Source of the DNA: Pseudobutyrivibrio sp.
Lineage (GTDB): Bacteria > Bacillota > Clostridia > Lachnospirales > Lachnospiraceae
Assembly (NCBI GenBank): GCA_017557435.1
Contig: JAFYYR010000016.1
Coordinates: 124,001 to 188,000, forward strand
Length of the DNA: 64,000 nt
Direction: 5' to 3'
Position 1 is the stretch's first letter; every line of letters starts with the position of its first letter. This document shows, piece after piece, positions 34,842 to 37,511 of this stretch. Below the pieces are notes generated by a model, which searched no databases, was not told where the DNA came from, and saw only the letters and a program-made list of their open reading frames with translations. Both the position numbers and the translations under genes were made by a program.

Positions 34842-35720
34842 TTAAAATGGAACTACTGCTCCGTCATATGTTGACTCGATGTAGCTTCTAACATCATCAG
34901 ATGTAAGAACCTCAACAAGTGCCTTGATTCCCTCATCATTCTCATGACCTTCTGCAACAGCGATGATGTTTACATATGTCTTAGCTGCCTCTGAATCTGC
35001 TGACTCATAAGCGATAGAATCCTTTGATACAGAGTAGCCTGCCTCAAGTGCATAGTTACCATTTAATACAACGAATGCAACCTCGTCCTTAACACGAGCT
35101 ACCTGAGCTGCCTCAAGCTCCTCAAACTTGATGTTCTTTGGATTCTCTGTGATGTCGTTAACTGTAGCTGTAAGACCTGCGTCATCCTTTAATGTAAGAA
35201 GTCCATTGTCCTGAAGAAGAAGGAGTGCTCTAGCCTCGTTTGTTGTGTCATTAGGAATAGCAATTGTATCGCCGTCCTCGATATCATCAAGAGTAGCCTT
35301 CTGACCTGGGTAGATACCAAATGGCTCATAGTGGATGCCACCAGCATTTACAAGGTGTGTACCCTTCTCCTCGTTGAAGCTGTCAAGATATGGTACATGC
35401 TGGAAATAGTTAGCATCAAACTCACCTGAATCTACTACAAGGTTTGGCTGTACATAATCATCAAATACTGTAACATCAAGCTTGTAGCCCTTCTCCTCTA
35501 AAAGTGGAGCTGCATACTCTAAAATCTCTGCGTGTGGTGTAGCTGAAGCTGCGATTTTGATTGTTGTAAGTTCCTTGTTCTCATCAGCTGTAGCTTCATC
35601 TGCTGTAGCCTCCTCTGCAGGTGCCTGTGTATCCGCTGTGGCATCGCTGCTTCCGCAACCTACTAATGCACCGATAACAAATGTTGCCCCTAAAATGCTT
35701 GCTAAAATTTTCTTTCTCAT
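34842..35720 (-). CDS. metQ: methionine ABC transporter substrate-binding lipoprotein (MetQ)
   Basis: The 292-residue protein has a lipoprotein signal ending LVGCGSS (Cys about 22). It then shows the NlpA/MetQ fold: IKIAASATPHAEILEYAAPLLEEKG, VDSGEFDANYFQHVPYLDSFN, then AIPNDTTNEARALLLLQDNGLL. MetQ binds methionine (D or L) at the outer face of the membrane. It is the last gene of the metN-metI-metQ unit and 60 bp after metI. Confidence 0.92.
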   Translation of the reverse strand: MRKKILASILGATFVIGALVGCGSSDATADTQAPAEEATADEATADENKELTTIKIAASATPHAEILEYAAPLLEEKGYKLDVTVFDDYVQPNLVVDSGEFDANYFQHVPYLDSFNEEKGTHLVNAGGIHYEPFGIYPGQKATLDDIEDGDTIAIPNDTTNEARALLLLQDNGLLTLKDDAGLTATVNDITENPKNIKFEELEAAQVARVKDEVAFVVLNGNYALEAGYSVSKDSIAYESADSEAAKTYVNIIAVAEGHENDEGIKALVEVLTSDDVRSYIESTYDGAVVPF

Positions 35721-35780: not shown

Positions 35781-36443
35781 TTATACTTGCTTGTGGTTCA
35801 GCTTTCTTGCTATAAACATTCCTGAGTTTGTAAATACCTGGAATAAAATAATAAGCAAGATAACTGTAACTATCATGATATCTGTCTGATATCTGTAGTA
35901 TCCGTACTGGACTGCTATACTTCCCAGTCCACCACCGCCTAAAGTACCTGCCATTGCTGAATAACCAAGTACAGTACCTAAGGCTATTGTCGCGTTGGTG
36001 ATTAGTGATGTCCTTGCCTCAACAAGAAGCACCTTGAATACGATTTGAATTCTAGATGCGCCCATTGATTTAGCTGCCTCTATAACTCCTGCATCCACTT
36101 CCTTAAGTGATGACTCCACCATTCTGGCAATGTATGGAGCAGCTGAAATAACAAGTGGTACGATTGTAGCTGTAGTGCCGTATGATTTACCAACTAACTG
36201 TCTTGTAATAGGAATAAGTAAAATTAGTAAAATCAAAAATGGTACGCTTCGAACTACATTTGAAATTGCATCTAAAACCTTGTATAAAAATGGATTAGGC
36301 TTTAATCCGTTTTTATCTGATGTAGTAAGTAAAATTCCCATTGGAAGTCCAAGAAAGTATCCAAAGAATGTGGAAACCACTGTCATGTAAACTGTCTCAA
36401 GTATTCCATTTAAAATCATATTTGTTGTAACGCTATCCCACAT
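35781..36443 (-). CDS. metI: methionine ABC transporter permease (MetI)
   Basis: The 220-residue permease has about five hydrophobic segments and the MetI/BPD family motif around ASMGASRIQIVFKVLLVEARTSLI (EAA-type loop). It contains SVPFLILLILLIPITR and AMAGTLGGGGLGSIAVQYGYYRY. Its start overlaps the end of metN by 11 bp. It would pair as a dimer with MetN to import methionine. Confidence 0.92.
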   Translation of the reverse strand: MWDSVTTNMILNGILETVYMTVVSTFFGYFLGLPMGILLTTSDKNGLKPNPFLYKVLDAISNVVRSVPFLILLILLIPITRQLVGKSYGTTATIVPLVISAAPYIARMVESSLKEVDAGVIEAAKSMGASRIQIVFKVLLVEARTSLITNATIALGTVLGYSAMAGTLGGGGLGSIAVQYGYYRYQTDIMIVTVILLIILFQVFTNSGMFIARKLNHKQV

Positions 36444-37221
36444 AATCCTTTGCCTCCTTTCCTTCTTTTTGCTCTCTATTCTTTAACTCATTCTCCTTGT
36501 TTAACCAAAAAAACTTGTCCTCTGGAAGATTAACCTCATCGATTCTTCCATCCTCAATAAGCTCGCCATCCTCGATGATTGCTACCTTATTACAGATGGC
36601 CTTAACTACTGACATCTGATGAGTAATAAGAACTATTGTGATGCCATACTCTCTATTAATCTCCTTAAGAAGAGTAAGTATAGATGCTGTTGTCTGTGGA
36701 TCAAGTGCGCTTGTAGCCTCATCACAAAGAAGAATCTTTGGATTCGATGCAAGTGCTCTTGCTATTGCAACTCTCTGCTGCTGTCCACCTGATAGCTGTG
36801 AAGGATATGCCTTAGCCTTATCCTCAAGTCCTACCTTAGCAAGAAGCTCAAATGCCTTAGCTCTGGCTTCTTTCTTTTTTACACCCTGAAGTGTAAGAGG
36901 AAATATTACATTATCAATGACATTCTTTTGCTGAAGCAGATTAAAATGCTGGAAAATCATTGATATCTCCTGCCGCTGTTCTCTAAGCTCTGCTTCGTTA
37001 AGCTGTCCTAACTCCTTTCCGTAAACTATAACCTGACCACTAGTTGGTTTCTCAAGATAGTTCAAACATCGAATCAATGTGCTCTTACCAGCTCCAGACA
37101 TTCCGATAATTCCGTAGATATCTCCGCTTTCAACATTTAAGTTGATATTTCTAAGTGCCTCAACTCTACTGTCCTTGCCTTCAAAGCTTTTTGATAAATT
37201 TTTAATCTCTATTGCTCTCAT
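36433..37221 (-). CDS. metN: methionine ABC transporter ATPase (MetN), without C-terminal NIL domain
   Basis: The 262-residue ATPase has Walker A GMSGAGKSTLIR, a Q-loop in SMIFQHFNLLQQK, the signature LSGGQQQRVAIARALA, Walker B ILLCDEATSALD and VLITHQMSVVK. It ends shortly after the ATPase domain. E. coli MetN is about 343 residues and has a C-terminal NIL/ACT domain that binds Met and inhibits transport; that domain is absent here. The operon is preceded by the Met-rich leader peptide and terminator at 37253-37411, so control appears to be transcriptional. Confidence 0.93.
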   Translation of the reverse strand: MRAIEIKNLSKSFEGKDSRVEALRNINLNVESGDIYGIIGMSGAGKSTLIRCLNYLEKPTSGQVIVYGKELGQLNEAELREQRQEISMIFQHFNLLQQKNVIDNVIFPLTLQGVKKKEARAKAFELLAKVGLEDKAKAYPSQLSGGQQQRVAIARALASNPKILLCDEATSALDPQTTASILTLLKEINREYGITIVLITHQMSVVKAICNKVAIIEDGELIEDGRIDEVNLPEDKFFWLNKENELKNREQKEGKEAKDYVG

Positions 37222-37252: not shown

Positions 37253-37293
37253 TAAAAAAACCATTGCCGCTTATAACTACTCCCAGGCAATGG
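37253..37293 (-). terminator. intrinsic attenuator terminator upstream of metNIQ
   Basis: CCATTGCC (37261-37268) pairs with GGCAATGG (37286-37293), an 8-bp perfect stem with a 17-nt loop. On the minus strand it is followed by seven T residues (37254-37260), with metN starting 32 bp further on. Its promoter-proximal arm can alternatively pair with two upstream segments, giving competing antiterminators. Confidence 0.8.
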
Positions 37294-37360
37294 CTTCTTA
37301 AGATATAGGCGCAAGACAGTAAGCCATGCACCCTCGGCCCTTTATCACCTGGGAGAATAG
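37277..37360 (-). promoter_or_regulatory. antiterminator pairings competing with the met attenuator
   Basis: On the minus-strand RNA, CTCCCAGG within CTATTCTCCCAGGTG (37346-37360) is complementary to CCTGGGAG (37280-37287), which runs into the terminator arm; flanking CTA/TAG adds pairs after a bulge. A second pairing, ATGGCTT (37321-37327) with AAGCCAT (37290-37296), also hides the terminator arm. The first starts right after Met codon 17 of the leader peptide. Confidence 0.6.
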
Positions 37361-37411
37361 CATTCGACGCATGCACATATCCATCATAGATGTACAGTTA
37401 AATGTTCTCAT
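37298..37411 (-). CDS. methionine/cysteine-rich leader peptide of metNIQ (37 aa)
   Basis: A short frame not long enough for usual gene finders. ATG at 37411 is preceded by AAAGGAG nine bases upstream. It encodes MRTFNCTSMMDMCMRRML and on to a C-terminal SLAPIS-type end (…AYCLAPIS), stop TAA at 37298. Of 37 residues seven are Met (1, 9, 10, 12, 14, 17, 29) and four Cys (6, 13, 28, 32). Five Met codons fall in residues 9-17, just before the antiterminator strand. The stop codon is 5 nt before the terminator arm. The layout is that of a ribosome-mediated transcription attenuator that responds to charged Met-tRNA. No SAM riboswitch or T-box core is seen. Confidence 0.75.
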   Translation of the reverse strand: MRTFNCTSMMDMCMRRMLFSQVIKGRGCMAYCLAPIS

Positions 37412-37511
37412 ATTGCCTTGCTCCTTTCTTTAAATATTAAATAACAATTAAATAATCATATATATTTGTTATAAAGATATAATAGTCTCCTAACTTTCCA
37501 AAATCAAATAG

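Follow-up and report, generated by a model that had tools for sequence, protein, structure and literature searches.

A Met-rich leader ORF upstream of metNIQ in Pseudobutyrivibrio, a probable member of a widespread Cys/Met-reading RNA switch family in Clostridia

In Firmicutes, control of the Met and Cys genes is generally ascribed to riboswitches, T-boxes or repressors, and the usual RNA control of the Met genes is exerted by the SAM-I riboswitch and the T-box. Translated leaders have been described for other genes and lineages. Short ORFs with Cys codons precede Cys genes in Actinobacteria (PMC1262725) and likewise in Mycobacterium tuberculosis (PMC13236596); in the former source, the Cys runs are located close to the stop codon, and a conserved terminator hairpin was not seen in Mycobacterium. 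Upstream of cysS of Rhodobacterales, uORFC-8-2 carries tandem Cys codons, usually codons 14-15, followed by a terminator-like stem (PMC8632094). For Firmicutes, leader-peptide attenuation is reported for a His leader before hisS/hisZ of bacilli (PMC2965389) and for the Leu attenuator of Staphylococcus aureus (PMC5794164).

The locus studied here lies in a 64,000 nt stretch of a Pseudobutyrivibrio sp. genome (the window), in which the initial annotation had read a short Met-rich ORF upstream of metNIQ as a candidate methionine attenuator. Direct reading of the sequence bears out the 37-codon ORF, its Shine-Dalgarno (SD) site, the coordinates and the codon counts (Table 1), with seven Met (codons 1, 9, 10, 12, 14, 17 and 29) and four Cys (codons 6, 13, 28 and 32). 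The terminator is present at the claimed distance of 32 bases from the metN start (37221), and metNIQ is followed on the same strand by a ThiF-family gene and a gene for a LysR-type regulator. Of 200 dinucleotide shuffles, 195 fold less well than the 201-nt window leader (z -2.5); the comparative data described below are the stronger evidence against chance.

Table 1. Parts of the leader element and of the metNIQ operon in the window.
Feature	Position	Strand	Basis or remark
SD AAAGGAG of leader ORF	37421-37427	-	direct reading; SD-like site also ahead of the start in aligned leaders
H0 5′ arm AGGAGCAAGGCA	37414-37425	-	overlaps leader ribosome-binding site; covariation and self versus non-self test
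Leader ORF, 37 codons, MRTFNCTSMMDMCMRRMLFSQVIKGRGCMAYCLAPIS	37298-37411	-	direct reading; frame kept in 41/44 testable leaders
Predicted sensing codons 9-14 (M M D M C M)	37370-37387	-	downstream-only folding
CGA-ATG, codons -4/-3 before arm A	37361-37366	-	
Arm A CTCCCAGG, codons 19-22, antiterminator 5′ half	37348-37355	-	self versus non-self test, 0/2000
Putative second pairing, 5′ part ATGGCTT (partner AAGCCAT, 37290-37296)	37321-37327	-	sequence only; comparative support absent
H0 3′ arm D TGTCTTGCGCCT, codons C-L-A-P near ORF end	37307-37318	-	comparison
Arm B CCTGGGAG, antiterminator 3′ half, overlapping the end of the terminator 5′ arm	37280-37287	-	
Intrinsic terminator	37254-37296	-	5′ arm 37286-37296; 3′ arm and T run 37254-37268
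metN (ATPase)	36433-37221	-	best NCBIfam match MetN, 339 bits, below curated cut-off of 499.7
metI (permease)	35781-36443	-	MetI model, 222 bits, above cut-off of 212
metQ (NlpA-type lipoprotein)	34842-35720	-	Pfam Lipoprotein_9, 288.6 bits

No core of a SAM riboswitch or a T-box had been seen at this locus, and our searches agree. Neither in the window nor in 20 related loci did any Rfam family reach its gathering score. The SAM-I riboswitch (RF00162) had no match in the window at the gathering score and none in the whole genome at E≤1, and the T-box (RF00230) had none at metNIQ. The genome has three T-box matches, all on other contigs; from their first residues, without a family search, we take the genes that follow them to be trpD, thrS and valS.

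We searched for relatives of the leader at increasing phylogenetic distance. In a blastn search of 41 genomes, eight from the genus had the leader ahead of metNIQ; unexpectedly, six copies were located upstream of a 47-residue OscA/DUF2292-like ORF, which is followed by metK in the five copies with unmasked sequence. One of these oscA-side copies belongs to the same genome as the window but lies outside the window itself (G000:C11:86347). The blastn matches L010-L017, L024 and L026, of which only L010 and L012 were read, are not counted as leaders. A covariance model built from 22 leaders (R1) detected 16 leaders in 11 of 29 genomes of the genus, nine before metN and seven before oscA-metK, and both copies were present in five genomes; R1 includes the long-range helix H0 described below and so favours matches that bear it, and three of the 19 places from this search were read as chance matches. 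Another 13 genomes of the genus harbor a metI-like gene, and the leader was absent upstream of metN in all 12 that were readable. In several of the leaderless loci of the genus (L292-L299), a metQ-type gene precedes metN; in the gap between the two, a short hairpin, poor in GC and accompanied by a T run, was seen by eye.

A peptide HMM combined with R1 revealed leaders in other genera of the Lachnospiraceae. Among 83 places in 397 genomes of this family, 56 were read as leaders (in 44 genomes), 14 were chance matches and 13 were not fetched; L084, one of the 56, has no start codon and was left out before all leader counts. Model R2 had matches at E≤0.001 in 23 of 344 genomes drawn from the order, 14 of 391 from the class and 6 of 378 from the phylum, draws which overlap and include the window's genome. 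The filter read 21 of the 23 loci fetched from these (L262-L284) as leaders and rejected L265 and L274, and L263 repeats L093. A core pattern found at least 118 stretches in named genomes, the matches listed coming from Lachnospiraceae, Ruminococcaceae/Oscillospiraceae, Saccharofermentans and other Clostridia, with a few outliers among them, for example one MAG labelled Eggerthellaceae; an in-frame start codon, GTG and TTG allowed, was present at 119 of 119 pattern sites in these stretches. In total, at least 165 nonredundant leaders of one layout were collected in the family and beyond, 71 found by the models and 94 by the pattern in these stretches. They are what is left below 80% similarity from 205 entries, in which some places are named twice (e.g., L104/L154). 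For the frame test and part of the permutation and folding analyses we used a set of 57 nonredundant leaders, from whose source L018 (a near copy of L009) and L037 (the same place as L094) had been left out. Judged from these sequences, the window leader is probably a member of a widespread family of Cys/Met-reading RNA switches in Clostridia.

The aligned leaders have a common order. The SD and the start codon are followed by the Cys/Met block, CGA-ATG, arm A, which is coded as Ser-Gln/Arg-Ala, the remainder of the ORF, arm B and finally the terminator. The spacing between A and the first ATG that follows the SD ranges from 41 to 71 nt, yet the frame is kept in 41 of the 44 leaders that could be tested, 13 of the 57 having no recognisable A motif, and each of the three exceptions has another, in-frame ATG close by. 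The claimed antiterminator pairing of A with B was supported when each leader was scored against its own and foreign downstream regions with identical maximisation: the mean was 24.0 for self and 21.0 for non-self pairs (sd 0.30; 0/2000 permutations; 57 leaders). The value was likewise reached by 0/2000 permutations in each of the 71 model-found and 94 pattern-found sets, and by 0/5000 in the 64 leaders remaining without the window's genus. Among the first 81 pattern sites, 77 of the 78 that could be scored had a downstream complement to A at z>3. The alternation of Gln and Arg in the S-Q/R-A motif tracks an A-U or a G-C pair, in 21 and 137 of 158 scored helices, respectively. No covariation of A:B beyond shuffles was detected within the genus alignment. 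The terminator retained 10 of 10 pairs in all 14 aligned leaders of the genus, two of these pairs showing double changes; the terminator finder returned none for L114 and L139 among 66 leaders, and some of its other placements are doubtful. Antiterminator and terminator are mutually exclusive and conserved across the leaders, A:B not being significant in the genus alone.

The comparison also uncovered H0, a long-range helix between the ribosome-binding site and the end of the leader ORF, which the initial annotation had missed. In alignment A3, 91.6% of its cells are paired, with 8 double changes compared with 1.6 after shuffling (0/500). The self versus non-self test gave 17.2 versus 13.3 in the 57 leaders (sd 0.37; 0/5000), 0/5000 without the window's genus and 0/2000 in both the 71- and the 94-leader sets, compared with 1374/2000 for a control region; unlike the R1-found set, the pattern-found set is independent of H0. 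Since A:B would cross H0, the two pairings are expected to hinder each other. Two further helices were rejected. A second pairing which had been proposed to hide the terminator arm (37321-37327 with 37290-37296) is present as sequence and 86.6% of its cells are paired in the genus alignment, but it has zero double changes and fails the permutation test across the family (357/2000 reach the value). A protector hairpin around A (P2) was weak in the 71 model-found leaders (26/2000) and not beyond chance in the 94 pattern-found ones (493/2000); we keep it only as a possibility.

Cys and Met account for 55.5% of the 1155 residues at codons -11 to -5 before A in the 165 leaders, and for 3.3% of the 1154 residues at codons 2 to -12. 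In the other two frames the block has 17.7% and 1.9%, a comparison that is partly circular because the start and frame of the model-found leaders were picked by their Cys+Met count. In 94 of the 165 leaders, Cys at -5 is imposed by the search pattern; among the 71 unforced, model-found leaders, Cys occupies -5 in 59, position -6 is Cys in 48 and Met in 17 (65 together), and position -7 is Met in 37 and Cys in 30 (67 together). The codons for Met and Cys differ at all three bases, and their interchange at -6 and -7 thus points to selection for the amino acid. Counting against the reading, the residue is Trp in 10 of the 165 leaders at -6 and in 9 at -7. In the window, the block reads M M D M C M ahead of a Met-type transporter. 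The initial annotation had named the homologue alignment as its check, and indeed frame, Met/Cys codons and covarying stems are kept while the other residues vary; as far as comparison of sequences can establish them, the frame, the block, A:B, H0 and the terminator are all parts of the element. Separately, the last sense codon is Cys in 39 of the 165 leaders (L104, L105, L145 and L153 among them), and 31 of these read Arg-Cys-stop; a second sensing site may lie here. Such a site at the ORF end was also suggested by folding around a ribosome, but there it is confounded with H0.

To locate the switching point, we folded the leaders with a ribosome placed on the ORF, allowing only downstream RNA to pair; the first unoccupied base was set at 12 from the beginning of the A-site codon. 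Of the 57 leaders, 50 with a terminator score >17 were used, L096, L102, L111, L114, L117 and L139 having been removed by hand because their terminators are doubtful or missing; the window leader (L001), which is below that score, was folded with a hand-set terminator, as were nine others. In the window, P(terminator) was 0.00-0.04 with the A site at codons 9-13, 0.44 at codon 14, 0.68 at codon 15 and ≥0.98 from codon 16, and footprints of 9-15 nt shifted the switching point by about one codon. When arm A was complemented in silico, the terminator stayed at 1.00. Over the 50 leaders, the mean P(terminator) was 0.35-0.43 at -14 to -4, 0.92 at -3 and 0.94-0.98 thereafter, and the mean P(A:B) before the terminator 3′ arm exists was about 0.9 up to -5, 0.83 at -4, 0.54 at -3 and 0.13 at -2. 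The codon block thus ends at the computed switching point. Under these assumptions, codons 9, 10, 12, 13 (Cys) and partly 14 are predicted to be the sensing codons. Met17 lies past the predicted switching point and is therefore probably not among them, so that the earlier view of the Met cluster at codons 9-17 as the sensor would hold for codons 9-14, in or near the switching zone, and probably not for its last member.

The outcome depends on what the flanks of the ribosome are allowed to do. Without a ribosome, P(terminator) was 1.00 for the window and 0.52 on average for the 50 leaders. When pairing around the ribosome was allowed, a ribosome at any of codons 5-30 left the window leader terminated (P 0.96-1.00), and antitermination was confined to codons 2-4 and, in part, to positions from 32 onwards; a ribosome at the hungry codons thus favours the antiterminator of the window in downstream-only folding but not in this one. 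In the latter folding, L022 and L104 were terminated at nearly all positions and L034 was mixed, while L033, L036, L085 and L093, which are antiterminated by default without a ribosome (P(terminator) near 0), switch no later than two codons past the final Cys of the block. Even in downstream-only folding, the terminator prevails for L005, L020 and L022 at every position tested and for L009 at most of them, so in these leaders A:B must form first and persist. For the window, the model likewise needs either that A:B forms first or that the ribosome keeps its flanks apart, both of which are plausible.

We consider it likely that the leader is a ribosome-mediated transcription attenuator of the trp/his type, with charged Met-tRNA as its signal, Cys-tRNA contributing, and metNIQ as its target. 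We infer the stalling, the direction of regulation and the role of H0 as follows. When Met (and Cys) is sufficient, the leading ribosome would clear codons 9-14 and cover A, so that B joins the terminator and transcription stops. When Met or Cys is short, the ribosome would wait at codons 9-13 and leave A free to pair with B before the 3′ arm of the terminator is made, and transcription would continue into metNIQ. If the leader is not translated, H0 would form, and the predicted fold of the window is again the terminator.

Which of the two amino acids is sensed can be approached from the genes that the leaders precede. In 132 of the 165 cases these were assigned to Cys/Met uptake or synthesis (metY, cystine-type transporters, cystathionine enzymes, cysK, oscA-metK and metNIQ), the classes being set by hand-written sequence patterns with representatives checked. 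The leaders are distributed over metY (76), cystine-type binding protein (24), metQ-like (13), cystathionine enzymes (9), ECM4/GST-like (5), metN (4), oscA (3), small classes (8) and no class (23). At codons -11 to -5, Met is most frequent in the metN leaders (3.75 per leader, with 1.50 Cys), followed by the ECM4-like (2.40 Met, 2.20 Cys) and metQ-like leaders (2.23 each) and a pair of PepT-like leaders (2.00 Met, 1.50 Cys); in the other classes Cys exceeds Met. Within the genus, position -5 is Arg or Phe in eight of nine metN leaders and Cys in seven of seven oscA-metK leaders, a contrast that includes the five genomes holding both copies. Upstream of 35 of 66 leaders (including L020, L031 and L034), a palindrome like ACCTATTGACATAGTAGGT lies over a TTGACA -35 box, 32-118 nt from the model match. 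It is a candidate operator of a Cys regulator, perhaps a CymR-like protein, and was not found in one shuffle per upstream region. This palindrome was found in 6 of 6 oscA-metK leaders tested and in none of nine metN leaders, being absent in the window as well.

We read the Arg or Phe at -5, the Met-rich block and the missing palindrome of the metN leaders as a Cys switch retuned to Met, and the window element is, by this sequence comparison, a Met-tuned member of a mostly Cys-containing class. The genus genomes that bear metI without the leader (12 of 12 readable) speak against a simple retuning. Alternatively, the leader could sense Cys and not Met, as in its relatives, the Met codons being neutral residues of the block; most leaders of the class do have Cys at -5 and precede Cys/Met genes, and the window keeps its Cys codon 13 inside the switching zone. 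We regard this as unlikely, given that eight of the nine metN leaders lack Cys at -5 and have Met at -6, -8 and mostly -10/-11, and that the palindrome separates them from their oscA-metK sisters.

Several neighbours of the leaders deserve mention. L129, L031 and L109 precede a PFL-like enzyme, a putative cyclase and a peptidase T-like gene, respectively, and a leader of this class upstream suggests that these genes may have a role in sulfur metabolism. The binding protein encoded at L034:1703-3079 is a fusion of SBP_bac_3 and an NlpA/MetQ-type Lipoprotein_9, two in one chain. Outside the window, a tRNA-like element lies between the terminator and the OscA-like ORF in L018, L019, L020, L022, L025 and L072 (Rfam tRNA, 35-45 bits), also in L009, and perhaps at L030, yet without a tRNA match at E≤0.01 there; ARAGORN called only L019, as tRNA-Cys. 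Its anticodon arm varies with paired changes, and the loop of 4-5 bases, most often GGCA, makes decoding unlikely; the element could be a tRNA mimic.

A ribosome might also be held by the leader peptide itself, arrested on a metabolite such as S-adenosylmethionine or cysteine, and then throw the same A/B/terminator switch. Such an arrest would fit the near-invariant codons -4 and -3 at the switching point (CGA in 61 and ATG in 66 of the 71 model-found leaders), which neither codon sensing nor A:B accounts for. Yet Arg is encoded by CGA in 61 of 62 cases, so that the letters and not the residue look constrained, Met and Cys swap within the block and the residues before it vary widely; nascent-peptide arrest is thus quite improbable. 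A metabolite-binding riboswitch with an incidental ORF and H0 as the closing stem of its aptamer is hardly credible, even though H0 encloses nearly the whole ORF and covaries and several letters around A are highly conserved, for the frame is kept in 41 of 44 testable leaders, Cys+Met is concentrated in that frame (55.5% versus 17.7% and 1.9%, partly circular as noted) and no Rfam family matches at its gathering score in the window or in the 20 loci searched.

Returning to an attenuator read by Met codons, we lean slightly towards the broader proposal that one Clostridia chassis of H0, A, B and terminator serves the whole sulfur-amino-acid regulon and shifts between Cys and Met tuning when the codons immediately ahead of A are exchanged. 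Within the genus, the metNIQ copy would be the Met sensor and its oscA-metK sister the Cys sensor, and H0 would act as a lock when the leader is untranslated. If this is true, a widespread codon-reading switch would explain how uptake and synthesis of sulfur amino acids are controlled in gut and rumen Clostridia, and genes of unclear role would gain a Cys/Met label. The data suggest a candidate rule in which the sensed amino acid is the one encoded at -5 to -8 ahead of arm A, and the natural series of Cys-to-Met retunings would be material for studying how a sensor changes its signal.

In the open-access papers searched, we found neither a description of these Clostridia leaders nor a leader attenuator with Met codons. 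The present leaders resemble the trp and his attenuators of Proteobacteria in their SD and short ORF, the block of hungry codons, the mutually exclusive antiterminator and terminator and the cognate downstream genes. They differ from them in lineage and amino acids, in the location of A inside the ORF right after the block, in H0, which ties the ribosome-binding site to the ORF end, and in the weakly supported early protector hairpin. In contrast to the Actinobacteria Cys leaders, whose Cys runs lie near the stop (PMC1262725), the block here is in the middle of the ORF and is coupled to a terminator switch. As described, uORFC-8-2 occurs only before cysS in Rhodobacterales and is thereby set apart from the leaders reported here (PMC8632094). 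The His (PMC2965389) and Leu (PMC5794164) leaders of Firmicutes share leader-peptide attenuation with ours but serve other amino acids. Among the systems found, the metNIQ leader would be without precedent as a leader-peptide attenuator that responds to Met codons.
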